From Prevotella sp. (GTDB taxonomy: Bacteria > Bacteroidota > Bacteroidia > Bacteroidales > Bacteroidaceae), in contig JAFUVB010000071.1 in assembly GCA_017471245.1 (NCBI GenBank), positions 1-46,292 of the forward strand: 46,292 bases of DNA, read 5' to 3'. Position 1 is the stretch's first letter; the number at the start of each line of letters is the position of its first letter. Positions 7,418 through 36,216 of this stretch are shown here, piece by piece. Both the position numbers and the translations under genes were made by a program. The notes under the pieces are model-generated. The model saw nothing but the letters and a program-made list of their open reading frames with translations, was not told the origin of the DNA and did not search any database.

Positions 7418-7876
7418 ATGAGAAAACTGTACACACTTCTATTCTTGGCTTGTTGTCTGAGTACGAGTGCTCAGAATGCCATAGTCATCTATCAGAAAGA
7501 CGGGAAAGTAGCCAACTTCGCCTTTTCGGAGAAACCCGTAGCAACGTATTCCGACAACCAACTGGTCATCACCACTGCCAAGACCTCTGTGCAATATCCT
7601 CTGTACCTGTTGCAGAAGATAGAATTTGTACTGTCGGGAACAACGTCTGTTGAGCAAGTGAAGAGCGATGCCAAGTTCCGTTTCACCGACGGCTCCCTGC
7701 ATATCACAGGCGGCAATCCGGGTTCACCGGTTTACATCTATAGTATGCATGGCATGTCGGAAGGTCAGTACCGCATCGATGATGCAGGCAATGCCGTAAT
7801 CTCCCTGCAGCGTCTGAGCAAGGGAATCTATATCGTCAAGACCAATCACTTCACCTTTAAGTTCACGAAACAATGA
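7418..7876 (+). CDS. Small exported protein: beta-domain plus T9SS-like C-terminal tail
   Basis: This 152-residue protein has a signal peptide (MRKLYTLLFLACCLSTSAQ), a beta-rich region (about 20-75; VIYQKDGKVANFAFSEKP, then YPLYLLQKIEF) and a C-terminal segment of about 80 residues resembling a Por-type sorting domain (PVYIYSMHGM, LSKGIYIVKTN, FKFTKQ). It aligns along its whole length with the protein at 28217-28678. The start at 7418 gives a clean signal peptide; an upstream in-frame TTG at 7385 lies in the promoter region. Its stop overlaps the C10 peptidase start (ATGA). Sorting domains direct cargo through the type IX system. Whether the protein is cargo, anchor or partner of the peptidase is unknown. 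The family resemblance is seen; the function is inferred. Confidence 0.82.
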   Translation: MRKLYTLLFLACCLSTSAQNAIVIYQKDGKVANFAFSEKPVATYSDNQLVITTAKTSVQYPLYLLQKIEFVLSGTTSVEQVKSDAKFRFTDGSLHITGGNPGSPVYIYSMHGMSEGQYRIDDAGNAVISLQRLSKGIYIVKTNHFTFKFTKQ

Positions 7877-10800
7877 AAAAGCTATTCTTATTCCTCGCCT
7901 TCTTCCTGTCAGCAGCAACGATGTTTGCTGACGATATTAGCGTGCAACAGGCACTTCAGATTGCCAGCCAGTTTGCGACAAATAAACCGACGACACAATC
8001 AAAGATGCGCAAGGTGGCAGCAGCGGTGCCCAATCCATCTCTTGCCTATGCGGTGAAATCGGACGTATCGGATAAAGATAATGTGTATGTCATCAACTAT
8101 GGTAATGACATGGGGTTTGTCGTTGTGTCGGGCGAAAGCGGCACTGGCGATGAAATTTTAGGATATTGTGACCATGGGGCGTTTGATTATGCGAACTGTC
8201 CGCCACAGATGAAGGAGGTACTCGACTTTTACTCCCTGTCTATTGACACGTTGAGGAAGAATCCTGAATTGGCAGCAAAGAGAAGAGTTGCTCAGACTTG
8301 GCCAAGTTCCATTGGCACGATCATCGTTGAGCCACTACTCACCACCCAGTGGAGTCAATGGGCACCTTATAATAACTTATGTCCAACAGGATGTCCAACA
8401 GGATGCGTACCTACCGCTGTCGCTCAGATTATGAAGTATTGGAGATGGCCTGATGTGACGCGTGAAAAAGTTTCAGGAGAAGATTTCTCAGGTCGGACTT
8501 ACGACTGGGATAACATGATAGATAATTATGAAACAACTTCGTATACAGGAGAACAGGCTGAAGCGGTAGCACACTTAATGGCAGATGTCGGTAAAGCCTT
8601 AGGTACAATGTATGCTCCAGAAGGGAGCGGTACGGGGACGGATTTTATGCCATTAGTCTATAATTTCAAGTACAATAGAGGCAATGCATATCATGAGAAT
8701 TTAGCAGAGGAGATGAAGGCTGAACTTAATCAAAGTCGGCCATTGTTGTATAGTGCTAGACAAATAGCTTATGAAAATGGACATGAACTCGTAGTCGATG
8801 GCTATACATCCAAAGACTATTTCCATTTCAACTATGGATGGGGTGGAAGTTATGATGGTTTTTACAAATATGCACCCCTCTACAATGTTGCGCCTTCTAT
8901 TATTACAGGAATATATCCGGAAGATACAGATATTATAAAATTGAATGATATCAAGTACATGTTATACAAAAACGGTACTGCTACTATTATAGGCTATTTC
9001 CCTGAAGGTATAAATGAAGACGATGATATTATGGTTTTAGTCAAAAGAGAAAACGGAGCCGTAGTAATTCCTTCCAATGTTGAGTACAACGGAAGAACCT
9101 ATAAGGTAACTCGTATTTGCCAACGTGCTTTCTATAATAAGGGACATTTCACTAAAATTACATTGGGCGACAACATTGAAGCCATTGATCACTTTGCCTT
9201 TATTAATAGTACCATCGATGAACTGGTGCTAAGCGACAAAATGGAGGTGGTGCCTGATGGAGCATTCGAAACAATAAAAATCAAGAAACTGACAATAGGC
9301 AAGAACATCAAGCGCATTGGTAAACGTGCATTTTACATGGGTCTGCTGTCGGAGGTTACAAGCAAGAGCCCTGCCTTCGAGGCTGACGACGAGGCATTCT
9401 ACATGACCAACCCCGACTGCGGCGAGTGGCTGGATTGTATCACATCCATTGGCTACCAGACCTTTGCTGGGGCAGGCTTCAGCAAAAGTCCTATTTTCAG
9501 CAACGTAGAAAAGATTGGTGCGCGTGCCTTCAACGGAGTTACCTTCCCTGAAGAAGTAGATGGGGCTGTTTCAGTCAGACAATTCCACATTAAGTCCAAA
9601 CTGAAATCAATAGACCCTAATGCCTTCTATAACACAAGGCTTAGCATCTTCAAGGTGGACGAGTCCAATCCTTATTTCTCTACTTCCAATTTTTCGCTCT
9701 TTGCTCGCTGCATGCTTTTCAATAAGAATGCCACAAGCCTCGTTCTTACAATAGATCCAGGCACTTCTATCGGAGAAGAGAATGGCTATATGACAGCCTT
9801 CCCTGAAACAGTGGTTAGACTGGAACCCTCTAGTATTTCTACCAGAAGCAAGAAGAACTATGTCAGTGTGACGATACCTAACACCGTCATCGATATGGAA
9901 GGAGCGTTCAAAGATTGCGAGTATGTGAACAAATTGACCTGTCTCGCTATTGTTCCCCCTGAAATCAGCGACTCTACTTTCAACGACAAGCTGATAGAAA
10001 GTTCTCCCCGGCTCTACGTTCCTGTGGGCACAGCAGAGCTTTATCGCAATGCCCCTGGCTGGAGGCGCTTTAAGAACATTGTTGCAGACCAAGCCTACAA
10101 CCCCGCTCCCCCACAAGGCCGCCAGTACCATATGGTGGTCAGCAGCATGGACGAGGAGAAGCAACAGCGCGTGAACATTCCCGTCAGCGAGATCAGGAGC
10201 ATGGAAGTGAGCGATGACGGCAGTCAGGTTATCATCAAGCGCAATGGCAAAGAAGACCTGACAACCTCTATCGCAGCCATTGACAGCATCGCATGGGTAC
10301 CCGGCTTCGTCTATGAGAATGCCGAAATCTTCGATATCAACGAGGACAACCTCACCGTTGAGGCGCAGAAATGCAAGATACGATTCGACCCGACAGTGAT
10401 TGACGGTGACGTGCAGCTCTGCGTTCGCAACTCGGTAATGGAAGGTGTGGTCGACGGTTTCGCCATCGACCTGAGCCTGTCGGACGACTCTCATGAATTG
10501 ACGGGAACGGTAGACATCACCATCCCTGTATCTGATACGAGCAAAAAATACAGTGCCGCCTACTACAATGAGGAGACGGGCGAGTGGGAACCCGTCTATC
10601 ACGAGTTTGACAAGACGGCAGGTACGTTCACCATCACTACCAACCACCTTTCGACGTATGGATTCTTCGAGATAGCCAACGAAATGCTCTCATACGCTAC
10701 CTTGACCCCTGCGGCGATAGATTTTATGGAGAGTCTTATACCAGAGCCATTGAACAAGATGGCAGGCAAATTGCTCGAAGTCATAGCCAGCGATGACCCT

Positions 10801-12588
10801 GAATGGGAGATGAGATGGCAGGCCACCAACGATATGGGACTGTGGCAGAGCATCGGTCTCGACGTGCTCTATAGTGCTGCCAACGGCACCTTGGAGTCGG
10901 TACTGGGATACAAGCCCTTTGCCGAGCAGATAGACGATGCCGTGGTGTCAATGGGCTACTTAGCCACTGCCATGAATGTGCTCAATGTGGCACGAGCCGA
11001 CCTGAAGGGGGACGACATCGGCGTGGCATCCAGTACGCTCAAGACCATCCTCGGCCATTATGGCGGCGTGGCAGGCCAGTTCATCGGTACAACAGCCTTT
11101 ACCGCATCAATGGCTACAGTAGCTGCTATCGGCATTGCCCTCGAAAAGTTTGGCACTATGGTGCAACAGCGAAAGATAGATCTCTATAACGAAGCCTATG
11201 AAATATACTACAGTCCAATAAGAAGCAAGGAAGTTGTTGCCGGCACCTCGAAATATGGCGACAAATGGTGTTACACATTGAAAGACTGGTTCGATCTCTT
11301 CTATAAAGCCTTCAGCAATCCCGATAAGACTCAAATCCAGGTTGACAGCTATGTTGAGACAGTAGTACGCGACTATTGCAACCGTTTCTGGGAAGACACC
11401 GATGCCCAGGCCATGTGTGTGGCTGAGGCAAAAGCCCATGGACTTACCTCTATGATGTATCCCGACGCTTACACCCGCAAGACCATCAGCGACGCATATT
11501 TTGCAGAACTGATGAACGGTAATTTGGTCAGCGTCATCCAGTCTGTCAGAAACCACGTGAAGGTAGATGCCTTCAATCGCTATTCAGCAGAGGCAAAGAG
11601 TCTGGCAAAGCTGATGAACACCCAGATAGGACTGCAGATTTTGGATAAGTCTGTCAAGGAAGGTGAGAAGTCGAAATATGCCGACCACACCATCCGCTTC
11701 ACCCTTATCCCCCGGTCGCTGTCAGACCCCGAGAATTTTGAGAAAACGATCAATGAGCAGGGTAGGTGCAAAATAGGCTATTTCACCCAGTATGCACTTA
11801 TCGTCCACGATATCCCCACCCGTCTGACGCTAATTGACCCCAATGGCAAGGAAGTGGCCGACTACCCCTTCAACATCTCTAACAAGAAGGGCAAGCAGAT
11901 TATTGAAATCGACCTATCTACTGGTGGCGTCGAGGTGGAGAATCCGCATCTGAAGGGACTGGAACTGGCATACGACCCTGCTGAGGTAGATGCCACATAC
12001 GACTGGTATGGCTATTTCGATGGGAAATACATGCGCGTGGGCGGCATTGGTATGCCCATACCACTCAACAACACTTTCAACAAGAGAGCCAACTTCCAGT
12101 TAGCAGTTGAGAAGTTGCTAAACCGGCATAACTTTATCACTGTTGATGCTTCGGGCAACTTCAAGATAGGTGACGACATCACCGGACAGTTTGAGAACAA
12201 TGGACTGGAGGGAACGGCCAAATTCGTCATCGACACCAACAACCAGTTTGTAGAGAAGACTAAGGAGCAGTTCATCAAGGACTTCAATAGTACTGGTCAG
12301 AAGGATGACATTCTAACCCTCTACAACCTTCTTAATGGCACCATCAACCATAAGATAGAGGGCGAGGTCAAGATTACGCGTGAGTCTGTCAATGCCAAAG
12401 AGTATGACGTCACCTACACTGGCAGTGGCACTTATTCGTTTGAGGCGGAAGTCGTTGACCGTGTAGATAACTACCAATACGAGGGATTATTAAAGGAGCA
12501 GAACCTTACGAGCGACGATTTCACCACTCGCAGTGTAGAACAAGAAGGCAAGGTAACTCTAAAATACTCCACCAAGATTACACCATAA
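7873..12588 (+). CDS. Large secreted C10 (streptopain-like) cysteine peptidase with leucine-rich repeats
   Basis: This 1571-residue protein has a signal peptide (about 1-19), an inhibitory Spi-type propeptide (to about 140) and a C10 catalytic domain with CPTGCPTGCVPTAVAQ (catalytic Cys near 178), GHELVVDGY (His near 304) and NYGWGG. BspA-like LRR_5 repeats follow (about 360-745), then a copy of the small beta-domain (about 755-815, ending IAAIDSIAWV). Last comes a region of about 750 residues I do not recognise, with a hydrophobic stretch (about 1070-1095). A 12-bp duplication (8380-8403) doubles the CPTG before the catalytic Cys. No C-terminal sorting domain is visible, unlike in the small protein coupled upstream. 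The gene breaks the expected argC-argD order. Peptidase class is firm; substrate unknown. Confidence 0.9.
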   Translation: MKKLFLFLAFFLSAATMFADDISVQQALQIASQFATNKPTTQSKMRKVAAAVPNPSLAYAVKSDVSDKDNVYVINYGNDMGFVVVSGESGTGDEILGYCDHGAFDYANCPPQMKEVLDFYSLSIDTLRKNPELAAKRRVAQTWPSSIGTIIVEPLLTTQWSQWAPYNNLCPTGCPTGCVPTAVAQIMKYWRWPDVTREKVSGEDFSGRTYDWDNMIDNYETTSYTGEQAEAVAHLMADVGKALGTMYAPEGSGTGTDFMPLVYNFKYNRGNAYHENLAEEMKAELNQSRPLLYSARQIAYENGHELVVDGYTSKDYFHFNYGWGGSYDGFYKYAPLYNVAPSIITGIYPEDTDIIKLNDIKYMLYKNGTATIIGYFPEGINEDDDIMVLVKRENGAVVIPSNVEYNGRTYKVTRICQRAFYNKGHFTKITLGDNIEAIDHFAFINSTIDELVLSDKMEVVPDGAFETIKIKKLTIGKNIKRIGKRAFYMGLLSEVTSKSPAFEADDEAFYMTNPDCGEWLDCITSIGYQTFAGAGFSKSPIFSNVEKIGARAFNGVTFPEEVDGAVSVRQFHIKSKLKSIDPNAFYNTRLSIFKVDESNPYFSTSNFSLFARCMLFNKNATSLVLTIDPGTSIGEENGYMTAFPETVVRLEPSSISTRSKKNYVSVTIPNTVIDMEGAFKDCEYVNKLTCLAIVPPEISDSTFNDKLIESSPRLYVPVGTAELYRNAPGWRRFKNIVADQAYNPAPPQGRQYHMVVSSMDEEKQQRVNIPVSEIRSMEVSDDGSQVIIKRNGKEDLTTSIAAIDSIAWVPGFVYENAEIFDINEDNLTVEAQKCKIRFDPTVIDGDVQLCVRNSVMEGVVDGFAIDLSLSDDSHELTGTVDITIPVSDTSKKYSAAYYNEETGEWEPVYHEFDKTAGTFTITTNHLSTYGFFEIANEMLSYATLTPAAIDFMESLIPEPLNKMAGKLLEVIASDDPEWEMRWQATNDMGLWQSIGLDVLYSAANGTLESVLGYKPFAEQIDDAVVSMGYLATAMNVLNVARADLKGDDIGVASSTLKTILGHYGGVAGQFIGTTAFTASMATVAAIGIALEKFGTMVQQRKIDLYNEAYEIYYSPIRSKEVVAGTSKYGDKWCYTLKDWFDLFYKAFSNPDKTQIQVDSYVETVVRDYCNRFWEDTDAQAMCVAEAKAHGLTSMMYPDAYTRKTISDAYFAELMNGNLVSVIQSVRNHVKVDAFNRYSAEAKSLAKLMNTQIGLQILDKSVKEGEKSKYADHTIRFTLIPRSLSDPENFEKTINEQGRCKIGYFTQYALIVHDIPTRLTLIDPNGKEVADYPFNISNKKGKQIIEIDLSTGGVEVENPHLKGLELAYDPAEVDATYDWYGYFDGKYMRVGGIGMPIPLNNTFNKRANFQLAVEKLLNRHNFITVDASGNFKIGDDITGQFENNGLEGTAKFVIDTNNQFVEKTKEQFIKDFNSTGQKDDILTLYNLLNGTINHKIEGEVKITRESVNAKEYDVTYTGSGTYSFEAEVVDRVDNYQYEGLLKEQNLTSDDFTTRSVEQEGKVTLKYSTKITP

Positions 12589-25886: not shown

Positions 25887-28220
25887 TTACTCGTTGTAGG
25901 CCTTCTTCATGGCATCCACCACAGTGGGGAGCGTCCACTTCAAGTCGGTGCGGTCGGTACCGTCGATGATGTTCATCCAATAGAAGGTGGCAATACCCAG
26001 ATCCTTCGCCCTTTTAACCATCTCTGCAGCCTGATCAGCAGCAGCCTTCTTCAATGAGTCAGAGGAACTTCCTGTTACAGAAACATTGTTGCCATGAGTT
26101 CCATATTCACCGATAATCACAGGAATGCCCTTGCTGACGAACCTGTTGTTCAGGCGTGTGAACATGTTTTTGATCTCATTACTGCACGTGCTGTTCCATG
26201 CGCCGTAGGTGTTAATCCAGTCATACGGGTCATAGCTATGAACTTCAGCAATGAGATGACCTGAAGCATTGTCTGTAGGTAAGGTGAAATTGTTCAGCAC
26301 GGCATCGTTGTGCGAAGCCGAATAAGTGGTCACTATCAGGTTGCGCGTTCCGTTGTTGCCGCCCGTAGAGCGCACGGTATTCACGAAACTCTGTGCAAAC
26401 TTGTTGACAGCCTCATAGCTTGAACTCTCCTTCGGGTTACTCCACTGGTTGTTCTTGTCGAGCATTTCATTATAGCCTTCAAAGAGCAGATGCTGGTCAT
26501 AGTCGGCAAAACGGGTGGCTATCTGCTGCCAAATCTTCACGAAACGGGCGTTATACTCATCATACTTGTCGATATCTGCTTTCAGCCACTCTGTGGTTCC
26601 GGCACCTGTGTCGTGATGAACGTTAAGGATGCAATACATGCCTTCGCTGATGACATAGTCCACCACCTCCTGCACACGATTCATCCACGACTCGTCGATA
26701 TTGTCGTCGCTGTCGAGATGCTGCCACCAAGTGACGGGAACGCGGATGGAATTGAATCCGCCTTGCTTCATGAAGTGCATCAGCGCCTTGGTGGTGACGG
26801 GCTGACCCCAAGCCGTTTCATATTTATCAGGACTCTTGTTGTTGCCAATCCATTCGCCGTTGCTGTCGAGCGTATTGCCCAAGTTCCAGCCAAGTCCCAT
26901 GTTCACCACAGCGTCTTTCGCGCTTTCCTCCACAAACGAAGCATTGAGATTCACTTCGTCGCGGGTGATGACACAACTCTGGTTGAACGCGTTCTTCCAC
27001 CAGTCGTTGGAAGGCATATTCGAACCATACCAAGGCATGAACCACAGCCATTTGGCACCGGCATCCCAGAAATCGCCCACCTGCGAGAACGTGCCGGCAT
27101 CGCCGTTGCCGCATTCTGCCAGAGTGACCATCTTGCCAGGATAGGCAGCTTCAATCTCACTGAACTCCTGCTCGTTCTGGGCTGCCGTCCATCCGTAAAG
27201 GTCGCGCCCGACGATATCCACATATTCATCGCCGGGATACCAGTCGGTGTCTTGATTGTATTTCGAACTGTCGCCGTTATAGTTCTGCGTTGTCCACACC
27301 CATATCAGGTTGTGGATGCCCTTCGAGTCAAAGTAATTGAACATTGCCTTCCACAGCTGCTTGTAGGTATCGGCACCGTCGTAGCCCCACCAGAACCACG
27401 AGCGAGCCCAGTCAGCCTGCTGTTTGAGCGTGGCATTTCCGGCAGCTTCGTGGAAGGGTCGCCAAATGGCGGCAATACCGGCATCCTGCAGTTTGAGAAT
27501 CACATCGGCCACCTTATCCATCTGCCCGTAGAACCACTTGTTCTCCCAAGTGCCGTTCACCAGCGCATTGGAAGCCTTGAAGGTGGTTTCCGAAGGTGTG
27601 CAAGTCACTCCTGATCCGTCGGAACCCGGTGTGGTGCTCTCTGTTTTCGGCACGTTGAAGTGCCACATCAGCGACACGATGCCGCCCGCATCAGCCCATT
27701 CCGTCACCGGCGTGATGTCGTTGTAGTTGATCCAGTTGTTGGTTGGCACATATACATGGATGAAATCATAGCAGTTGATGGCAGGATACTTGCCCGTGGC
27801 TGTATAAATCTTGTCGGCCTCTTTGTGATTCCAGTTCACATCGGCCATCACCGACGAGAGGGTCTTCGACTTATACACCAGCTGCAGATACTTATACAGG
27901 CGCTTGGCGTCTTCGTTTGCCTCGCCGTCGGCGAGCGTGATGCCGTCAACATTGGCGGGCTTGGCTATCGAGAACACCACGTTCTGGATGTTGTCGATAT
28001 TGAATTCGTCCAACGCCCCGAGGTCTTCCCAGCCTTTATAGTAGACACCTAACTTGCCGTTTTCGTGCTTCAGCGAAGATACCTCCAACGTTTTTCCGAT
28101 GAATTCTATTTCCTTCTTCTGACCATCCTTCATGTTGACGATGATCTTGTCGCCTTCCTTCTGTGCCGTGGCAGTCATTGAAACCAGCACGGCAAACAAT
28201 GAGAATAAAAGTTTTTTCAT
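25887..28220 (-). CDS. Secreted GH26-GH5 bifunctional mannanase/endoglucanase
   Basis: This 777-residue protein has a signal peptide (to about 20), a small beta-domain (about 22-90; IIVNMKDGQKKEIEF, LDEFNIDNIQNVVF) like that of the coupled tail protein, a GH26 domain (about 105-430; WRPFHE acid/base Glu near 258, TLAECGN nucleophile near 369), and a GH5 domain (about 440-775; LNVHHD, EGYNEM acid/base near 585, IIGEYGTHG nucleophile near 705). GH26 points to beta-mannan and GH5 to glucan or glucomannan; a similar mannanase/CMCase fusion is known from rumen Prevotella. No C-terminal sorting domain is present. It overlaps the tail-protein gene by 4 nt (ATGA). Domains firm, exact substrates inferred. 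Confidence 0.93.
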   Translation of the reverse strand: MKKLLFSLFAVLVSMTATAQKEGDKIIVNMKDGQKKEIEFIGKTLEVSSLKHENGKLGVYYKGWEDLGALDEFNIDNIQNVVFSIAKPANVDGITLADGEANEDAKRLYKYLQLVYKSKTLSSVMADVNWNHKEADKIYTATGKYPAINCYDFIHVYVPTNNWINYNDITPVTEWADAGGIVSLMWHFNVPKTESTTPGSDGSGVTCTPSETTFKASNALVNGTWENKWFYGQMDKVADVILKLQDAGIAAIWRPFHEAAGNATLKQQADWARSWFWWGYDGADTYKQLWKAMFNYFDSKGIHNLIWVWTTQNYNGDSSKYNQDTDWYPGDEYVDIVGRDLYGWTAAQNEQEFSEIEAAYPGKMVTLAECGNGDAGTFSQVGDFWDAGAKWLWFMPWYGSNMPSNDWWKNAFNQSCVITRDEVNLNASFVEESAKDAVVNMGLGWNLGNTLDSNGEWIGNNKSPDKYETAWGQPVTTKALMHFMKQGGFNSIRVPVTWWQHLDSDDNIDESWMNRVQEVVDYVISEGMYCILNVHHDTGAGTTEWLKADIDKYDEYNARFVKIWQQIATRFADYDQHLLFEGYNEMLDKNNQWSNPKESSSYEAVNKFAQSFVNTVRSTGGNNGTRNLIVTTYSASHNDAVLNNFTLPTDNASGHLIAEVHSYDPYDWINTYGAWNSTCSNEIKNMFTRLNNRFVSKGIPVIIGEYGTHGNNVSVTGSSSDSLKKAAADQAAEMVKRAKDLGIATFYWMNIIDGTDRTDLKWTLPTVVDAMKKAYNE

Positions 28221-28678
28221 TTGCGTGTGATTTTAATTGACTTTCCGTTCACATTTACGATATACACTCCCTTGGGCAGCATGTCTACATCTACCACCTG
28301 ATAGTCGCCAGTCTTCTCTAACGGCATGTTCACCGCCTTGCCGTCAATGGCAAAGATTCGGATGCGGGCATTCTGTCCGCGCACCACGATCCGGTTGCCC
28401 TCCATGCTAACCTCTGCATCACCTTCCACTTTGCGTATGCCGGTTGAGGTTCCGTAGGTGAACGTCTGCACCTTCTTGAGTTCGTATGATGACGACTGGT
28501 CGCCAGCCTTTACCGTCAGCATGTCGTCGGCAAACGAGATCTCAGGATTTGACGACAATGCGAACTCCACCCTGGTGTTGTCGTTGAAAGTGATGAACAG
28601 CGACTTGCCTTGTGCGTGTGCCGTCAGCGGCAAAAGCAGCATGGCGAGCATTGCGAATAAGTGTTTTCTTCTTTTCAT
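28217..28678 (-). CDS. Small exported protein: beta-domain plus T9SS-like tail, coupled to the mannanase
   Basis: This 153-residue protein has a signal peptide (MKRRKHLFAMLAMLLLPLTA), a beta-domain (LFITFNDNTRVEFALSSNP, then YELKKVQTFTYG) and a C-terminal tail (ARIRIFAIDGKAV, MLPKGVYIVNVNGKSIKI) resembling a type-A sorting domain. It aligns end to end with the protein at 7418-7876. The frame extends to 28705, and methionines at 28687 and 28705 are possible; 28678 gives the best signal peptide. It is translationally coupled to the GH26-GH5 gene and preceded by the 22-bp repeat array. It could be a surface partner or anchor of the enzyme, but nothing in the sequence proves this. Confidence 0.82.
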   Translation of the reverse strand: MKRRKHLFAMLAMLLLPLTAHAQGKSLFITFNDNTRVEFALSSNPEISFADDMLTVKAGDQSSSYELKKVQTFTYGTSTGIRKVEGDAEVSMEGNRIVVRGQNARIRIFAIDGKAVNMPLEKTGDYQVVDVDMLPKGVYIVNVNGKSIKITRK

Positions 28679-28738
28679 ATCATTCATTTTTATGTTTCTT
28701 TCCATCCAAATGGTGCATCCCCTGCAACACTTTTCATC

Positions 28739-28824
28739 AGTAAATCAATTTAATTTGCTGAGTAAATCAATTTAATTTGCATAGTAAATCAATTTAATTT
28801 GCATAGTAAATTAATTTGATTTAC
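28739..28824. promoter_or_regulatory. Phased 22-bp operator-like array
   Basis: Four tandem 22-bp units (AGTAAATCAATTTAATTTGC plus two bases) end in a near-palindromic last unit (GTAAAT, AATTT, ATTTAC). The period equals about two helical turns, so each unit presents the same face. It lies between the GH26 lipoprotein gene and the tail-protein/mannanase pair, upstream of the latter on the minus strand. Its position suggests a cooperative binding site; the protein is unknown. Confidence 0.6.
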
Positions 28825-28909
28825 TTTTCCATCTAACCGTGGCGGAGGGTGCAAACCATTGGTTTTCAACGAGTAAAGCGGCTATTTGCCGCAAGCCACT
28901 CGCTGTTGT

Positions 28910-30061
28910 TCAAGGCAGATAGATGCCGTTGAGGTCGCGAAGGAACAGCGTGCGGCGGTCGTTATAGAACTGCACGAAGTCTTCAGTGGATCGTTGGCCG
29001 GGATAAGGAGCAAAGAAATGCCCCTGCTTGTCGTGGGCATTGCGCCACACCAGCACATAGCTCACCGCATAATCCTTGAGTGCCGGAGCTAATGCTGCCG
29101 TCCACCAGTTGTCCATCGGAATGCCTTCATAGCCCGTTTCAGCCACAGCGATAGCCTTTCCGTGAGCCTTTCCCAACTGCTGCATGAACGCCAGATGACC
29201 TGTCAGCCGCCTGCCGTAGTTTGCCACCGCAGCGGTATCGCCTTCGGCACCACTGCAATAGATGTCAACACCCAGCACATCGATGAGATCGTCGCCGGGG
29301 TAACGGTCCATGTAATGCTGCTCATCGGGTTGCGCGTCGGCACCGGGACTATAGGCAAAGAGGGCATTCACCACTCCCTTTTCCTTGAGTCTCTGCCGCG
29401 TGAGCTGCCACAATGCCATATACTGCTCTTTCGAACAAACGTTCTCTCCCCACCAGAACCAGCTGCCCGTGTGCTCGTGCCATGGACGGAAGATGACCGG
29501 GACGCGCACGCCGTAGGGTGTTTCCAACGAACTGATGAACGCCGCCACGCGGTCTAACCAGCCAAGGAACAGCTCATGCCGCTCCCCTCCTTTCAGCACG
29601 GATGCCACGGTCTGCTTCTCCTGATCGGTCAGTGAGTCGGGTTTCACCCATGCCGAGCCGCCGGTAAGCGGATTGTCGAGGTGCCAGCTGAGGGTCACCA
29701 CGCCGCCACGGTCGAACTGGTCGATGATCATCTGGCGCATCTTGTCAAACGGAACGCCGTCGAGATTCACCGAGTCGCCCAACTCTAAATGGCCTAAATC
29801 GAAGCCCATCACGGCAGGATAGTCGTTGCAAACGGTCTTCACGTCGCTACGGGCAGAGTCGCCCACCCATCCGATGCCGTAGGCAGTATCATCCTGATGG
29901 CCGAACATATAGCCAGCCGAGTCGGCCTGCGCCTTCATTTTGGCAAGTAGGTTCTCCGTGCGCTGTGTGCGCCCGCTGTCTGCCAGCGGATCGTTGGGAT
30001 ATTTCTTTCCGCAGGATACGAGGAGCAGAATTAGAAAGATAATCGTAGCTTTATTCTTCAT
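28910..30061 (-). CDS. GH26 beta-mannanase lipoprotein
   Basis: This 383-residue protein has a lipoprotein signal (ILLLVSCGKK, lipid Cys near 17) and a single GH26 domain. FRPWHEHTGSWFWWG carries the acid/base Glu near 196 and AVAETGYEG the nucleophile near 308; MFGHQDDTAYG near the N-terminus is typical of the family. It would sit at the outer membrane and cut beta-mannan or glucomannan, supplying oligosaccharides to the SusC/D pair. It is shorter than, and independent of, the GH26 module of the fusion enzyme. It lies 23 nt after the small DUF3791-like gene, so the three genes probably share a transcript. Confidence 0.92.
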   Translation of the reverse strand: MKNKATIIFLILLLVSCGKKYPNDPLADSGRTQRTENLLAKMKAQADSAGYMFGHQDDTAYGIGWVGDSARSDVKTVCNDYPAVMGFDLGHLELGDSVNLDGVPFDKMRQMIIDQFDRGGVVTLSWHLDNPLTGGSAWVKPDSLTDQEKQTVASVLKGGERHELFLGWLDRVAAFISSLETPYGVRVPVIFRPWHEHTGSWFWWGENVCSKEQYMALWQLTRQRLKEKGVVNALFAYSPGADAQPDEQHYMDRYPGDDLIDVLGVDIYCSGAEGDTAAVANYGRRLTGHLAFMQQLGKAHGKAIAVAETGYEGIPMDNWWTAALAPALKDYAVSYVLVWRNAHDKQGHFFAPYPGQRSTEDFVQFYNDRRTLFLRDLNGIYLP

Positions 30062-30084
30062 CTCTACTTTGTATTTGAATATCC

Positions 30085-30294
30085 TTAAATCTTGGTATTT
30101 TGAAGTTCTCGTAACAAGTCTTCCACAATATAATAATCACTCATCAGTTGTAGCCCACTCTCAGGATTGTTCAACAAATCAAAAACCTCAGAGTTGTATA
30201 GTATATCCATTGCTCTTTCTTGTGAAACACCGAGCTTGCCGGCGAGTATATGTATGCACCTTGCTATCTTACGCCATAACACTTGATCTCGCAT
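30085..30294 (-). CDS. Small DUF3791-like protein, second of a pair
   Basis: This 69-residue acidic protein has the pattern of DUF3791-like proteins: helical, with LAGKLGVSQERAMDILYNSEV and a C-terminal YYIVEDLLREL. It has no signal peptide and no membrane segment. It pairs with the 82-residue neighbour upstream (20-nt gap) and is preceded by an unusually strong Shine-Dalgarno sequence. DUF3791 genes commonly sit beside other small genes in Bacteroidota and Firmicutes, but their function is not established. I cannot assign a role here; its presence in a mannan locus is unexpected. Confidence 0.7.
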   Translation of the reverse strand: MRDQVLWRKIARCIHILAGKLGVSQERAMDILYNSEVFDLLNNPESGLQLMSDYYIVEDLLRELQNTKI

Positions 30295-30300
30295 AGAACT

Positions 30301-30309
30301 ACCTCCTTA
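30301..30309 (-). promoter_or_regulatory. Strong Shine-Dalgarno sequence
   Basis: On the minus strand TAAGGAGGT lies 6 nt before the ATG at 30294. It is nearly the full anti-16S complement, whereas the other genes in the window show none of comparable strength. This fixes the start and hints that the gene pair came from a lineage relying on such sites. Confidence 0.7.
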
Positions 30310-30314
30310 CCCCA

Positions 30315-30563
30315 TCATTCTGCGCTTTCTTCCTTTTCCCAGTTATGTAAGGCTTCACTCACATTCCATACCACGCCTTCGATACTCTCGGTATGAAGAG
30401 TGTCATAGCAATCAAATAGCAACGCTTTTACCAAACCCTGATGATGAAGACGATTATAGAGATCTCTTGGTGAAATCCCCATTTTGCCAGCTGTTGCCCC
30501 TATCGCAAGTACAGCAAAATGCACTTTGTCATTTTCCAGTGTTCTCACTAATGGATCCGTCAT
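30315..30563 (-). CDS. DUF3791-like small protein, first of a pair
   Basis: This 82-residue protein matches the DUF3791 pattern: a helical start, GISPRDLYNRLHHQGLVKAL, then CYDTLHTESIEGVVWNVSEAL with the characteristic LHT(Q/E)S segment, and an acidic end. It is cytoplasmic by appearance. It begins 17 nt after its own -7 element, immediately beyond the terminator of the glycan-binding protein gene, so it starts a new transcript that appears to continue through the second small gene into the GH26 mannanase. The family's function is unknown. Confidence 0.78.
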   Translation of the reverse strand: MTDPLVRTLENDKVHFAVLAIGATAGKMGISPRDLYNRLHHQGLVKALLFDCYDTLHTESIEGVVWNVSEALHNWEKEESAE

Positions 30564-30579
30564 AGGTTTGATGTTTTTG

Positions 30580-30610
30580 CAAATATACGAACTTTATACG
30601 AAACGGCAAA
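30580..30610 (-). promoter_or_regulatory. Promoter of the DUF3791 pair and GH26 gene
   Basis: On the minus strand TTTG (plus 30607-30610), a 19-nt spacer and TATATTTG (plus 30580-30587) match the consensus. It begins only 10 bp from the terminator T tract of the preceding gene. Confidence 0.65.
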
Positions 30611-30619
30611 ACGTTTTAA

Positions 30620-30653
30620 GAAAAAAAAAGGGACGGACACAGTGGTCCGTCCC
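30620..30653 (-). terminator. Terminator of the SusC-led operon
   Basis: On the minus strand GGGACGGACCACTGTGTCC continues to a GTCCC arm, forming a GC-rich hairpin (30630-30653) followed by about ten T residues. It ends the four-gene susC/susD/glycan-binding operon 17 nt after the last stop codon. Confidence 0.92.
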
Positions 30654-30669
30654 TCTTGAGATTGATTCG

Positions 30670-33087
30670 TTAAGGAAGAATAGCAATTTTCGTTATTCCA
30701 CTGATATCGCCCTGGATAATCAAGCCTCCATTGTTGATGGCCTCCATGACAACATCGTCGAATACAAGTTCCATCACATCCTTGCCTTCCGACCAGTCTG
30801 TCAGGTAATACAGAGCAGTCCATGATGTGTCGTTGATCTGAACCTGGCCAGAAACAGATGGATCTTTATAGACAATGAACTTGGAACCCTTCTTTACGCC
30901 CAATTCTGCCAGCAGTTCCGGACTCAGACTGAAGCGTCCTTCGTCGCCCCAGATGAAAGTGTAAGGATAGGAGATAGCACTGCCATCCATGTTCTTCACG
31001 TAGTCGGCAATATTCTTTTCAAACGAAATCTTGATTTCAACGGCAATGCTGTTCAGAATAGCATCTTGTCCGTGAACAATCAGAAGCCCGCCCCAGTCGG
31101 TTGAACCGGCTTTCAGGTTGGCAATGGCACTGGCCGACAGAGGAATGATGTACTTGTCTGAAGACGGATCGAACGAATAAATCGTTTCAGATGCAGGCTC
31201 CAGACCCGTAGCGATGTCAATATGTCCCCAGCCGCCGTTGTATGCCTTCATCTTAGGATCTGCCCCGGTAACGGTATAGTTGAAGATGAGAGACACTTCG
31301 GCACCATCAGGCACGTCATCGAGTGCAGTTACGGGTATGCCGCCCTGCGTGCTTGTGCTCCAAGTAAGCTCAAACGGACCGTTGAAGATAACCTTCGTAA
31401 TGGAGCCTTGCGGTATCACGCTGATCTTATACTCCACCTCGCCGTTGGAAGAAACGAGCTTAACGGTAGAGGATGACGATGCTGTGGCGGGAATACCAAA
31501 CGTAAGCGTCTGTGCCGTCTCGGAGTATACGTACTTCACCTCTTCATTGTTCACGAAAACATTGGTGAGCTTGTCGGCATTCTTCACGGGAACGGTGAAC
31601 ACATCACCAGCCTGCGGCGTGTTGTCTTCGTTAAATTCGGGTAATTCGGTGATGTAGCAGAACACGGCCTCTGCAATATTCAGCTCCGGAGCATCCACTG
31701 TGGTGCCGTTTGCAAGGTTCAGCACGGGCACACCAGAGGTGCCTTCCATCGGAATACGGATGGTAAGAGTCTTGCCGTCGGCAGTTGCTTCATCCACATC
31801 TGCCGTTGCGTCGCCGAAGGTGATGCTCTTCACGAGGTCGAGATCTGTACCAGTAACAATCAGAACAGCACCGGCGGCAACAGGATTGGCATTATAGGCA
31901 GTGGCAACAGGCTTCACCAACGTGAACGGAACTTTCACTTCCTTACCGTTAGCCATGCGCAGGGTGAGACCTTCGCCTTCCTGAGCTGTTTCGGGAACGG
32001 CATTGATCACGATGCCCACACCCGTTACACTGAACTCAACAGCGTCAGCCACATTGTCGAACAACACTTCAGAAACCACATCAAGGTCTTCGCCGCGGAT
32101 AATCATGCGACCGTCTGCCTTCACTGGATTCGGAGTGACAGAGCAGTTGCTCGGAGCAACCGTTTCGATCTTTCCTACCGGCACTTCAACACCAGAGCGG
32201 CAAACCAGATTGACGTCGCCATCTGGAGCTGCTGCAGGAACGACAAATGACAATGTCTTACCGTCGCCGGAAACATTGAACTCTGTTACTTCAACACCAG
32301 CCACATCTACCTTCTCAATCAAACCGAAGTAAGAACCGGTGATGGTGATGGTCTCGCCTTGCTTCACGGTAACAGTACCCTGAGCAGAAGCCTCACCACG
32401 CGGAGAAGCCAGTTTGCTGACAGTGGCTGTTCCCACATTCAGAGCATTTTCGCTCTCGATGATGTTATAGGAAATATCGGCAGAGGGATCTTCCAGATTG
32501 GTCAGGTCAACTGTATAGAGCGAAATCTTACCAGTCTTTGCCGTTTCAGGCACTGTCACCTGAATCTTATATCTGTCGTGATAAGCGAAATCATTCTCAG
32601 ACACCTGCACGCCATCGGTGAATTCCACCATGTGGATCAGGTTCAGATAGTCACCCTCGATTGTGATCATCTCGCCCGGCATAGCAGAAGCTGGAGAGAA
32701 TGATGCAAAGTCAATGGGCTCTTCGTAGGTGAGCTCGGTAATCGTGGTGATGGTCTCATTGGTCTTGGTTGTCAAAACCACCTTACCAACTTCGGGACCG
32801 TCTTTCGGCACTTGCACGCGGATCTCACTGGGAATTCCACTCTTGATAACCTCGATGCTGGTGATGGGAGGAACGCCAGGGATGGTTACCGAAGCCACCT
32901 GATCCAGATTGGATCCCAAGAAACGCAGCATACCTCCGCGCATCACAGGCTGCGGACCATATACATTCAGATGGACACCCTGCTGATACTGATTGGTATC
33001 CAGATCGTCTTCACTGCACGCTGTCAGTGAAAGCCCTGCTACCAGGGCAATCACCAACATAGTGAATATGTTATAATACTTTTTCAT
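30670..33087 (-). CDS. IPT/TIG-repeat surface glycan-binding lipoprotein
   Basis: This 805-residue lipoprotein (lipid Cys near 24 in LSLTACSED) has about five to six IPT/TIG immunoglobulin-like repeats (about 40-530), recognisable from recurring V-x-P-x-G-x-x-(I/V)-x-I-x-G-x-(Y/D)-(F/L) segments such as VKQGETITITGSYFGLI. The C-terminal part (about 540-805) contains two beta-sandwich-like regions rich in Trp (AYNGGWGHIDI, STDWGGLLIVHG, DTSWTALYYL) that could bind glycan. It is the fourth gene of the susC operon, 19 nt after the previous one. By position it is an outer-membrane SGBP. The ligand is probably mannan, judged from the enzymes. Confidence 0.85.
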   Translation of the reverse strand: MKKYYNIFTMLVIALVAGLSLTACSEDDLDTNQYQQGVHLNVYGPQPVMRGGMLRFLGSNLDQVASVTIPGVPPITSIEVIKSGIPSEIRVQVPKDGPEVGKVVLTTKTNETITTITELTYEEPIDFASFSPASAMPGEMITIEGDYLNLIHMVEFTDGVQVSENDFAYHDRYKIQVTVPETAKTGKISLYTVDLTNLEDPSADISYNIIESENALNVGTATVSKLASPRGEASAQGTVTVKQGETITITGSYFGLIEKVDVAGVEVTEFNVSGDGKTLSFVVPAAAPDGDVNLVCRSGVEVPVGKIETVAPSNCSVTPNPVKADGRMIIRGEDLDVVSEVLFDNVADAVEFSVTGVGIVINAVPETAQEGEGLTLRMANGKEVKVPFTLVKPVATAYNANPVAAGAVLIVTGTDLDLVKSITFGDATADVDEATADGKTLTIRIPMEGTSGVPVLNLANGTTVDAPELNIAEAVFCYITELPEFNEDNTPQAGDVFTVPVKNADKLTNVFVNNEEVKYVYSETAQTLTFGIPATASSSSTVKLVSSNGEVEYKISVIPQGSITKVIFNGPFELTWSTSTQGGIPVTALDDVPDGAEVSLIFNYTVTGADPKMKAYNGGWGHIDIATGLEPASETIYSFDPSSDKYIIPLSASAIANLKAGSTDWGGLLIVHGQDAILNSIAVEIKISFEKNIADYVKNMDGSAISYPYTFIWGDEGRFSLSPELLAELGVKKGSKFIVYKDPSVSGQVQINDTSWTALYYLTDWSEGKDVMELVFDDVVMEAINNGGLIIQGDISGITKIAILP

Positions 33088-33106
33088 TGTGATTCAACAT
33101 TTAGAA

Positions 33107-34450
33107 TTATTTGTTAGGAACGGCACGGATGTTGTCAATCTTGATGATAGGAGCACACTCAACACCATTAATGCCGCCTCCGAGCACGAAGATAGTCAAA
33201 CTACCAAAATCAAGGGCTGACTTGAATGTGTTCTGCGTGAGAACGCCTGAACGGTCGGCTGTGAAGGTAGTAAGAGGAATGGTCACTGTCACCCACCTGT
33301 TGCCAGTGTCGTAAGAACCTGTTGCTGTCCAAGGACGATACATTGCGCGTCCCCAGTCGCCCATGCCATCCTCACCGTTGAAGATTTTGGCATTAGCGCC
33401 CTTAACTTCGGTGTATCCATCAATAGGATTACCGCTCAGTGTAACCTTGTCGACACCTTCGAATGCAATCTGCATAGCACCAGAAGTCCATGGGTTGGAA
33501 GAAGGAATATACATCTCGAACTTGAGCGACATCTTTTCCCAATTGGTGAAGTCAACCAGATTATACAGGGCAATACCGTCGCCTGACGTAATGTTCTGCG
33601 GTGTGTTCCAGTCGCCGCACCAATACTCGAATGAGAAAGCACCGTCGTTCCATCCGCCATCCTCGCTCATCTTGGCAATGCCGTCGCCTAACTGGACAAA
33701 GTTGCCTGTGATTGAAGTCTCATCAGAAAGAATGTCGCGTGGATGCCAGCCATGGTTGCCAAGACCTGTCAGACCATCAAAGTCGAAGAGCATGCCACGA
33801 GAGTCAAGATAGTGGAACGGCGACTCAACTTTTCCGTAGATCGTGGATACACTAATGGGACCCTCTACGTCGCACTGCGGCATATTGAAGGTGATTTCAC
33901 CCTGGCTGAAGCTGGTGAATTCGGTAACGGTCTGTCCGTCGGGAAGTGTAACCGTGAGCGGCACATTGGGATCGTCAATGAAGTAGTTTCCGTAGAGTGT
34001 CACACTCTCTCCTGCCCTGACATATTCGCAAGACATGGCAGTGAGTGAAGGACCGGGAACAACCACATGGAAATCGTAAGTTACGGTGTCTTTTGCTGCT
34101 GTAATCATATAGATTTTATCGCTTACAACTGCTGGGATACCTTCAGGAACCCTCACAATCAAGGTATGATTTGTGATGTAGCTTGTATTCAGCATCGCCT
34201 TTTGGTCGTTGAAGTAGATTTGCTGAATACTTGTCAGGTTGTTTCCAACCAGACAAATGATCGACTCTGTACTTGCTTCCACGATGAGGGAGTCTGCCTG
34301 AGAAAGATACGGCATGCGCACATACTGCACTTCAGGTATTCCGTCAGTGAGTTCAAACTTATCCGGCTCGTCTTCGCACGAAGTGAAGACACCAGCACCC
34401 ACCATCATCGCTCCTACGAACAGGGCTTTGAAATATTTGTTGATTTTCAT
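33107..34450 (-). CDS. Surface glycan-binding lipoprotein (SGBP-B type)
   Basis: This 447-residue lipoprotein has lipid Cys near 25 (GVFTSCEDE). One to two IPT-like domains (about 40-210; VRAGESVTLYGNYFID) precede a C-terminal glycan-binding domain (about 215-447; GLGNHGWHPRDIL, WCGDWNTPQN, YRPWTATGSYDTGNRWVTVTI) resembling SGBP_B binding domains with aromatic platforms. The frame opens at 34480, but ATG 34450 starts a proper signal peptide (MKINKYFKALFVGAMMV). Gaps to both neighbours are 19 nt, so it is co-transcribed with susD and the IPT protein. It should hold mannan chains at the cell surface near the SusC channel. Confidence 0.88.
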   Translation of the reverse strand: MKINKYFKALFVGAMMVGAGVFTSCEDEPDKFELTDGIPEVQYVRMPYLSQADSLIVEASTESIICLVGNNLTSIQQIYFNDQKAMLNTSYITNHTLIVRVPEGIPAVVSDKIYMITAAKDTVTYDFHVVVPGPSLTAMSCEYVRAGESVTLYGNYFIDDPNVPLTVTLPDGQTVTEFTSFSQGEITFNMPQCDVEGPISVSTIYGKVESPFHYLDSRGMLFDFDGLTGLGNHGWHPRDILSDETSITGNFVQLGDGIAKMSEDGGWNDGAFSFEYWCGDWNTPQNITSGDGIALYNLVDFTNWEKMSLKFEMYIPSSNPWTSGAMQIAFEGVDKVTLSGNPIDGYTEVKGANAKIFNGEDGMGDWGRAMYRPWTATGSYDTGNRWVTVTIPLTTFTADRSGVLTQNTFKSALDFGSLTIFVLGGGINGVECAPIIKIDNIRAVPNK

Positions 34451-34469
34451 ATCTTTATCTTTTATTATA

Positions 34470-36197
34470 TTAATAAGCATACTCTGCCCTCACGTCAACA
34501 TGCTGTGCGGGTTCGTTCAAATGCGGGTTATACACAACATCCTCATCGGGGAATGGCAAAGTGAAGATTTCTTTAGTGATATGTGGAGCTGGCGTGTCGG
34601 TGTTATAACGCTGTGTGGCAGTTACCACCCATGTGTTGCTCTCATAATAAGCCTTGTAGAGATCACCAAGTCCAAAATACTCGTTGCGGCGCTGGTTATT
34701 GATGATATCCATTGCCTTGTTTACATCATAGTAGGACATGCGCACCAAGTCGAACCAATAGTCACCCTCAAGGGCAAACTCAAGGCGACGCTCCTTCAAC
34801 ACTTCATCGAGAGTGATGCTGCTTGGTCTTTCGTAGCTGCTCACTGCACGGTGGCGCACTTTATAGAAAGCATCAATTGCGCTGGCATCGGATGTGGATC
34901 CTGCGTTTCCAATCTTTGCCTCGGCATAGATCAGATACACATCTGAGAGTCGCAAGACGTGAGTAGCCAAAGAACTGCACTGCTTGGCTGCACTGATACC
35001 AAAGGTTTTCTGATGGTCACTGTTGTTGCCATACTGATGCTTTGCGATGTTAGCTCCTGTCACAGACTGAAGACCGTCGTTGGACCCTGGCGCGTATGCT
35101 TTGTCATAAAGGAAACGAAGATAATCGAATCCGCCCTTGTCCTGCCACCAATAGCTGTATGTGTCGCCAGCCATCATCATGGTAGCCTTGCGGCGCGTGT
35201 CAACATCGGCACGCTGAGAAGGGTTGTCGAGCGCAGACACTCCAAAGGCATCCTGAAGATCCACAGAAGGACAAGACCAGTCACCCCACGACTGGAATTC
35301 GTCGAAGCCAACCATGCCAAGCTCTGAGAACAAGCAATTGCCGCAAGTGTAATTCACTTGCTCAGCCGACCAACGCCAGCCAAACAGGCTCTCTTCACAC
35401 TTATTGTTCTCACCCTTGAAGATATCCTCATAGTTTGCCATCAGTTCCTTTCCGGAATTGTCGATCACATCCTTTGCATACGATGCAGCCTTTGCCAAAT
35501 CCTCGGCATCACGCTGCCCATTGCCATTGGCATTAATGCCAGACTTAGCAAGATATACCTTAGCCAGCAATCCCTTGGCACCCCATTTGTCAATACGTCC
35601 TGCCTCGTTCTTCTCTGGGAGCAGTTCAATGGCCTTCTCAAGAGTCATTACGATATATTCGTAAAGGTCGGGAGCCTGCACTTTAACTTTCTCATTATAG
35701 TTTCCGGCTGCAATCTCACCACTGTTGTCGTGAACGATAGGCACTTCGCCGAAAATGCGCACCAGATAGAAATAAGCCATAGCCTTCCATGCGAGGCACT
35801 CTCCCATGGCAGCATTCTTAACCGTTTCAGAGGCATTGGCAGTCTTCAGTCGGTTATAGATAGTGTTTGCCTGAGCATTTACAGCCCAAAGCGAAGCCGA
35901 TGTAGACTTGATGTCGTCATCACTTCCGTTGACGGTGAATGTAAGATAGGGACTTCCGCCCATGTAGAGGTTGCCCGACATCACTTCAGGAATCTTGTAA
36001 TAGCCGCGGCTGAGGAAATCATACCACGGAGAATTGTAGAGCGAGTTTACGCTTGCTCTTGTCTGAGCATCATTCTGGAAATAGTTTCCATCGTTATATC
36101 CATCTTCGTTGGGACGGTCGAGGAAATCACCGCACGAAGCCAGCGACATACCAAGAAGCATGCTCAAAGCAATGTATTTGATATTTGAAAGTTTCAT
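34470..36197 (-). CDS. SusD/RagB-family outer-membrane lipoprotein
   Basis: This 575-residue lipoprotein has lipid Cys near 22 (SLASCGDFLDRPNEDGYNDG). The alpha-helical TPR-type body has MGECLAWKAMAYFYLVRIFGEVPIV and the C-terminal family motif VLKERRLEFALEGDYWFDLVRM. SusD proteins cap the SusC channel and pass bound glycan to it. Its stop is 19 nt before the next lipoprotein and its start 19 nt after susC. Sequence length and order are standard for a polysaccharide utilization locus. Ligand inferred to be beta-mannan. Confidence 0.95.
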   Translation of the reverse strand: MKLSNIKYIALSMLLGMSLASCGDFLDRPNEDGYNDGNYFQNDAQTRASVNSLYNSPWYDFLSRGYYKIPEVMSGNLYMGGSPYLTFTVNGSDDDIKSTSASLWAVNAQANTIYNRLKTANASETVKNAAMGECLAWKAMAYFYLVRIFGEVPIVHDNSGEIAAGNYNEKVKVQAPDLYEYIVMTLEKAIELLPEKNEAGRIDKWGAKGLLAKVYLAKSGINANGNGQRDAEDLAKAASYAKDVIDNSGKELMANYEDIFKGENNKCEESLFGWRWSAEQVNYTCGNCLFSELGMVGFDEFQSWGDWSCPSVDLQDAFGVSALDNPSQRADVDTRRKATMMMAGDTYSYWWQDKGGFDYLRFLYDKAYAPGSNDGLQSVTGANIAKHQYGNNSDHQKTFGISAAKQCSSLATHVLRLSDVYLIYAEAKIGNAGSTSDASAIDAFYKVRHRAVSSYERPSSITLDEVLKERRLEFALEGDYWFDLVRMSYYDVNKAMDIINNQRRNEYFGLGDLYKAYYESNTWVVTATQRYNTDTPAPHITKEIFTLPFPDEDVVYNPHLNEPAQHVDVRAEYAY

Positions 36198-36216
36198 ATT
36201 CTTATTACTTTATTAA

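Follow-up and report, generated by a model that had tools for sequence, protein, structure and literature searches.

A conserved gene pair in Prevotella joins a small protein with a T9SS tail to a tail-less secreted partner

Proteins count as cargo of the type IX secretion system (T9SS) if they themselves carry a sorting tail. The window analyzed here, located on contig JAFUVB010000071.1 from Prevotella sp. (assembly GCA_017471245.1, positions 1 to 46,292 of the forward strand, 46,292 nucleotides), raises the question of whether such a tail may be carried by one protein on behalf of another. It holds two gene pairs, A and B, in each of which a small protein comprising a signal peptide, a beta domain and a T9SS tail is encoded just upstream of a large secreted enzyme devoid of such a tail. 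The pair constitutes a genuine, conserved module of two genes that is found widely, and the small protein is probably a dedicated sorting adaptor for its partner. The best clue, absent from the sequence-only initial annotation of the window, is that the beta domain of the small protein is, judging from sequence comparison, a homologue of the domain located just after the signal peptide in many partners. In many bacteria of the gut and rumen, the export tag of a secreted protein seems to reside on a small partner protein whose gene lies immediately upstream.

The two pairs comprise the following features (HMM, hidden Markov model; AF2, AlphaFold2).

7418 to 7876, forward strand: small protein A, 152 residues (ATG at 7418, stop at 7874-7876), with signal peptide, beta domain and T9SS type A tail.
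7478 to 7630, forward strand: beta domain of A (beta HMM E 1.3e-20, A itself being among the sequences of the model).
7643 to 7873, forward strand: T9SS sorting-domain tail of A (TIGR04183, 23.8 bits, residues 98-152; family tail HMM).
7873 to 12588, forward strand: partner of A, 1571 residues (ATG at 7873), with signal peptide, Inhibitor_I69, Peptidase_C10 and LRR_5, and without T9SS tail.
10171 to 10290, forward strand: possible but weak beta-domain copy inside the C10 partner (iterated HMM E 1.3e-4, the protein itself being in the set searched by the iteration; no match with the uniterated beta HMM).
28217 to 28687, reverse strand: small protein B, 156 residues (the alternative ATGs at 28705 and 28678 would give 162 and 153 residues).
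28448 to 28606, reverse strand: beta domain of B, residues 28-80, with six strands that form, by eye, two similar halves (AF2 model, family alignment).
28220 to 28411, reverse strand: T9SS tail of B, residues 93-156, with seven strands (AF2); TIGR04183 and PF18962 over their cut-offs.
25887 to 28220, reverse strand: partner of B, 777 residues (ATG at 28220), a GH26 and GH5 enzyme with signal peptide and without T9SS tail.
27969 to 28148, reverse strand: N-terminal beta domain of the GH26-GH5 partner, residues 25-84 (hhalign profile comparison, AF2).

The initial annotation had placed the two pairs at these positions on opposite strands, each with a 4-nucleotide overlap, and had described the small proteins as homologous and tailed, and the enzymes as tail-less. 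Its coordinates are borne out, and the reading frames confirm that an ATGA overlap joins the small gene to the enzyme gene in both pair A and pair B. The homology of A and B holds as well, with 25% identity over 126 residues (two-sequence E 4e-11). Both tails score as sorting domains: that of A reaches 23.8 bits with TIGR04183 (cut-off 23) but only 18.3 bits with PF18962 (cut-off 27), while that of B is over the cut-off with each (25.9 and 28.0 bits, respectively). Neither enzyme returns a sorting domain in NCBIfam at E<=10, and no lipobox cysteine was found by eye at the end of either signal peptide. According to Pfam, the I69 domain sits within the C10 enzyme only, small protein A being devoid of it. 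The GH26-GH5 partner of B has a full-length relative of solved structure (6d2w_A, 1047.7 bits).

The Prevotella genome (3.73 Mb, 114 contigs) encodes the T9SS components SprA (TIGR04189, 2632 bits), PorU (NF033707, 606.5 bits) and PorV (NF033710, 512.9 bits), and contains 12 places over the TIGR04183 cut-off. Searched with a profile of A and B, it returns full-length matches for three of the four best, namely A, B and a third homologue on contig 112 (E 1.8e-9). The small gene of contig 112 is followed, after a gap of +19 nucleotides, by the gene of a large secreted enzyme of 946 residues (Pectate_lyase_4 and CBM77). The recurrence of this layout at a third full-length homologue of the same genome shows that the pairing is not due to chance. 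Two other short tail proteins of this genome match the beta HMM weakly at most: one on contig 72 (L228; 142 residues, RHS-like) has an ATGA overlap with a large gene, and one on contig 98 (L227; 102 residues) lies 18 nucleotides ahead of a large frame.

Across the genus, 138 of 150 genomes, that of the window included, possess a match to the small protein at E<=1e-4. The regions surrounding the best-scoring 83 rows outside the own genome were analyzed, signal peptides being called by a simple script rule in place of a dedicated predictor and control gene calls being based on open reading frames (ORFs). By this crude rule, 80/83 small proteins have a signal peptide (79 SP1, 1 SP2). An ORF of at least 100 residues occurs within 300 nucleotides downstream of 79/83 small genes, and 68/83 satisfy a strict rule (same strand, gap of -10 to +35 nucleotides, signal-peptide protein downstream), the gap being exactly -4 in 42/83. 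Of the remaining 15, three are followed by a signal-peptide partner after 48-76 nucleotides and five fail only on the script's call of the start or signal peptide. The initial annotation had proposed recording the gene next to each homologue; most homologues examined turn out not to stand alone, with these 68/83 preceding a signal-peptide partner. As a control, other genes of the same loci were scored with a gap of -60 to +35 nucleotides: such a downstream partner is found for 60/75 small genes versus 85/509 other genes (Fisher 1e-27), or 63/290 when the latter are restricted to signal-peptide genes. A gap of -4 is found for 38/75 small genes versus 20/509 other genes.

The pair extends beyond the genus. 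In 20 regions of the family sampled from the top of the list, a partner lies downstream of 16/16 short small genes, which represent 15 other genera (strict rule, 14/16), and of 4/5 long-frame small genes. It is present in Segatella copri iA622, S. paludivivens, S. baroniae, Prevotella sp. KH2C16, Duncaniella muris and a Barnesiella metagenome-assembled genome, and SprA is found in 8/8 pair-bearing genomes checked, including those of D. muris, Barnesiella, S. copri and S. baroniae. One genome harbors five small genes within ~26 kb, each with its own partner.

Several loci depart from the simple layout. D. muris apparently has a second module near the first, on the opposite strand (L170:7744-10559). 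At L080:4486-10192, one small gene precedes two partner genes in tandem, whose products share their N-terminal domain; the second lies 7 nucleotides after the first. In L191, L193, L194 and L195, the beta domain and tail form the C-terminus of larger frames, LRR-like in L191 and FGE-sulfatase-like in L194 by eye, and the partner gene is still next. In L192:3110-6436, the small protein and a pectate-lyase-like partner share one open frame in which the internal signal peptide of the partner is kept; this fused frame is probably a lost stop or an assembly error.

Is the tail confined to one member of the pair? The family alignment (A3) gathers 82 of the 83 small proteins of the genus (L111 omitted) and three of the own genome, two rows being trimmed to their matching part. 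TIGR04183 is reported at E<=0.01 for 78/85 of them and PF18962 for 67/85, so that the tails announced in the initial annotation are a trait of the family. In contrast, TIGR04183 returns 0/70 hits in the last 150 residues of the partners, these 70 being the 73 complete ones minus L117, L143 and L145, judged to be non-partners; the absence of a sorting domain from the window enzymes extends to these partners. A tail HMM built from the small proteins hits 0/81 partners at E<1e-3, versus 10/584 other genes of the same loci. The crude rule assigns an ordinary signal peptide to 71/83 partners and a lipoprotein-type one to 1/83.

The partners themselves are diverse. Pfam analysis of the first 450 residues of 79 partners reports pectate lyase (9), calycin-like (9), DUF4876 (7), C10 with I69 (5), GH26 (4) and beta-helix (2) domains, together with single GH5, FGE-sulfatase, Fib_succ_major, Cthe_2159, DUF4595 and other partners. 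The first fourteen named loci (L146-L159) all exhibit the pair, with partners of 439-787 residues taken as GH26/GH5 type by their N-terminal sequence. This diversity bears on the proposal that the small protein acts on its enzyme in the periplasm, as a chaperone or an inhibitor, a role that the KLIKK small genes or the Spi/I69 inhibitors may have. Such a role would account for a small gene directly upstream of a hydrolase, and small ORFs likewise precede the Tannerella forsythia KLIKK proteases described in PMC4404884. We consider it highly improbable: the small proteins bear T9SS tails, I69 lies in the C10 enzyme, and the calycin-like, DUF4876 and other partner families are not recognized as enzymes. 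Since the partners include such families, inhibition is not a general function; a general role as C10-protease inhibitor, in particular, is ruled out by the unrelated partner families and by the presence of I69 inside the enzyme.

A feature shared by many of these partners and the small proteins is the beta domain. An HMM of this domain, built from the small proteins with signal peptide and tail excluded, matches 14/81 partners at E<1e-3, with the match beginning at residues 22-27 in 13 cases, versus 0/405 shuffled sequences, and 33/81 partners at E<0.1 versus 1/405. A larger search at E<0.1 reports 18/66 signal-peptide partners, 0/335 other signal-peptide ORFs and 2/249 ORFs without signal peptide. 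After six rounds of iteration, the HMM matches 87/117 partners (three of the 117 being counted twice, as L070, L071 and L083 are the same loci as three of L146-L159) versus 3/584 other genes, and the domain is located at residues 20-59 in 83/87; the iteration recruits the very partners on which it is scored, and the 584 other genes passed through the same steps as control. The three non-partner matches are a second tandem partner, a long carrier of beta domain and tail, and one true exception; two of them thus belong to the same system. A partner-domain protein at L100:7230-7973 is devoid of an adjoining small tail gene, and another long frame ends 44 nucleotides upstream of it.

When a 17-row alignment of GH26-GH5 N-terminal domains is compared with the beta domain of the small proteins, hhalign reports a 95.9% probability (E 6.2e-9, 50/52 columns), the maximum of 50 shuffles being 1.3%, and the short KTDG partner group reaches 87%. 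Over four partner groups the shuffle maximum is 1.6%, one of the 50 runs in one group having returned no alignment. The AF2 models exhibit six strands in the same order in small protein B (residues 28-80) and in the N-terminal domain of its GH26-GH5 partner, with a predicted local distance difference test (pLDDT) score of 89.0 and a predicted template modeling (pTM) score of 0.47 for the whole of B, and values of 85.5 and 0.68, respectively, for the partner domain; the model of B also has an N-terminal helix. The small-protein profile additionally matches residues 1-81 of structure 6d2w (E 1.6e-5, signal peptide included).

The pairs were scored with the small gene first, and gene order was also read in a reciprocal search. 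As A3 holds the tail, lone weak matches to it may be ordinary tails, and a second profile (A8) was therefore built without tail, from 14 same-genus rows of the partner domain of the RNDG group. A8 matches 28 of 201 genomes of the family; each of the 28 lies outside the genus and possesses SprA (p 4e-4). An ORF comprising beta domain and tail lies directly upstream in 26/30 of the loci returned, of which eight were already present in the other-genera sample; one of the four loci without an upstream small gene is cut by the contig end. The idea that the pair arose by splitting of one ancestral gene is not supported, since a split-off tail is expected downstream and the small gene lies upstream in these 26/30 loci. 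An A3 match is found in 153/155 SprA-positive versus 8/46 SprA-negative genomes. Of the eight SprA-negative genomes, three contain 5 to 18 matches each, and SprA is present in the other members of their genera; the other five have a single weak match each (2.2e-5 to 2.8e-7), maybe ordinary tails. Lastly, the nearest homologue of a small protein has the same partner class in 69/76 cases, compared with a mean of 12.4 and a maximum of 25 in 2000 shuffles.

These counts also bear on co-transcription without physical partnership, according to which two secreted proteins of one regulon would carry a spacer or binding domain common in Bacteroidales. The shared domain is indeed widespread, the gene coupled to the small gene of L117 encodes no signal peptide, and a spacer role is what the S. 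copri authors assume for the domain in the legend of Fig. 1 of PMC12704710. Yet the domain is nearly confined to partners in the loci examined (87/117 versus 3/584), adjacency is reciprocal in 26/30 loci and the overlap is exactly 4 nucleotides in 42/83, which makes this explanation quite unlikely.

How, then, could the pair operate? A tail-less partner needs help if it is to use the T9SS. If the small protein is its sorting adaptor, both proteins would reach the periplasm via Sec, each by its own signal peptide, where the beta domain of the small protein would bind the homologous beta domain of the partner. The type A tail of the small protein would then be recognized by the PorV/SprA translocon. 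Thereafter, the small protein might take the tail-less partner along through the outer membrane, the two moving as one complex; alternatively, PorU would remove the tail and the small protein would become attached to surface lipopolysaccharide (LPS), holding the partner on the surface. The ATGA coupling may serve to keep the two proteins in 1:1 supply. The genomic support consists of the pairing, the tail on one side only, the shared beta domain, the co-occurrence with SprA and the co-inheritance of partner classes. The same tails, pairing, shared domain and tail-less partners would also fit a surface dock, in which the small protein alone passes the T9SS and is fixed to LPS while the partner crosses the outer membrane otherwise and then docks; the mature small protein after tail removal would, moreover, be little more than a beta domain. 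We regard this as rather unlikely, given that no partner has a T9SS tail (0/70) and a lipoprotein-type signal is found in only 1/83 by the crude rule, other export routes not having been searched for.

Several observations weigh against the sorting adaptor. Partners reach 1706 residues, which would make for a bulky complex. Seven of the 83 small genes lack a coupled signal-peptide partner: L094, at a contig end, L114, L117, L123, L124, L143 and L145. In L117, the small gene overlaps by 4 nucleotides a DUF6621 gene without signal peptide. The shared domain is missed at E<0.01 in 30/117 partners, most C10 and pectate lyase partners among them. The uniterated beta HMM misses both window partners (GH26-GH5, E 0.98; C10, no match), so that profile comparison is needed, and hhalign taken alone is weak for the pectate lyases (38%) and the RNDG group (26%), though above every shuffle. 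Ordinary T9SS tails within the profile confound the link between weak A3 matches and SprA, and co-inheritance of partner classes is expected for any operon. Finally, contact between the pair members and T9SS transport of the partner are inferred, the support being genomic predictions. The two-protein surface display suggested in the initial annotation thus stands as regards pairing, tails and tail-less partners, its contact and transport being an extrapolation from them.

L094, L117, L143 and L145 form one orphan-like subfamily of the small protein, with genes near 4 kb in each oriented locus. In L094, L117 and L143, the gene before the small gene is presumably an acetate-CoA ligase.

Pair B forms the end of a polysaccharide utilization locus (window positions 25887-39495), in which it is preceded on the same strand by a TonB-plug/SusC-like protein, SusD, a surface glycan-binding protein (SGBP-B) and a GH26 gene. 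This adjoining GH26 gene (28910-30061) is lipoprotein-like in appearance. A 14-bit match of the GH26-GH5 enzyme to NF052318, the PorU N-terminal model, starts in the signal peptide and is taken as signal-peptide similarity. The same model weakly matches 2/85 small proteins (best E 0.0012) and, from model position 1, several unrelated-looking frames of the own genome. The PorU of this genome gives no match with the beta HMM (-0.3 bits).

Should an adaptor be able to supply the tail, the lists of T9SS cargo for gut and rumen Bacteroidales are incomplete. The puzzle stated in PMC12704710, of how S. copri GH26|GH5_4 faces outward without a lipid anchor, would become testable. There is perhaps an even chance that sorting in trans is general in T9SS-bearing Bacteroidales: a genome would often encode several members of a large family of dedicated tail proteins, the docking beta domain of each fitting a single tail-less partner, and the complex would be exported or displayed via the SprA pore. 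In that case, cargo counts based on C-terminal tails would miss a large part of the surface proteome, key plant-fiber enzymes included. A tail in trans would explain how many tagless enzymes could get to the cell surface, and the beta-domain pair could double as a modular display tag.

Among known systems, the small protein resembles ordinary type A cargo (TIGR04183 / PF18962) by its signal peptide and type A tail, in a genome with SprA, PorU and PorV, but the likely payload is here encoded as a second, tail-less protein. In Tat hitchhiker export, a whole complex is exported by virtue of the signal on one of its subunits. Unlike the T9SS pair, the hitchhiker acts at the inner membrane, with a different machine and folded cofactor enzymes. 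Older papers on Bacteroides/Prevotella ruminicola endoglucanase reportedly deal with a gene in two reading frames and with cell location; a search for one of them returned nothing. Literature searches, with most subscription journals outside their coverage, turned up no paper on trans-acting T9SS tails or on small T9SS-tail proteins in Prevotella.

The KLIKK proteases of T. forsythia have six small upstream ORFs, whose function is given as unknown in PMC4404884, and share with the present pairs the small gene directly upstream of a secreted hydrolase. According to the same paper, those small proteins are predicted lipoproteins without mutual similarity and the proteases carry a C-terminal domain. 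Here the roles are reversed, the tail being on the small protein, the small proteins forming one family and the partners being diverse; the signal peptides (79 SP1 and 1 SP2 of 83) and the 0/70 partner tails differ accordingly. The S. copri GH26|GH5_4 of PUL 7 (PMC12704710) and structure 6d2w are of the same enzyme type as partner B. That enzyme is described there as lacking a lipid anchor and as bearing an uncharacterized domain presumed to be a spacer, its anchoring being left open; this domain corresponds to the beta domain shared here. In the main text of PMC12704710, "T9SS" does not occur and "type IX" occurs once, in the title of a reference; its account of the enzyme in the abstract and the first part of section 5 mentions no preceding small protein. 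Lastly, type B C-terminal domain cargo with its own PorP/SprF shuttle (PMC12618676) likewise involves genetically linked pairs around T9SS signals, but the linked protein described there is an outer-membrane shuttle, and not a tail-less, signal-peptide-bearing partner as in the present pairs.

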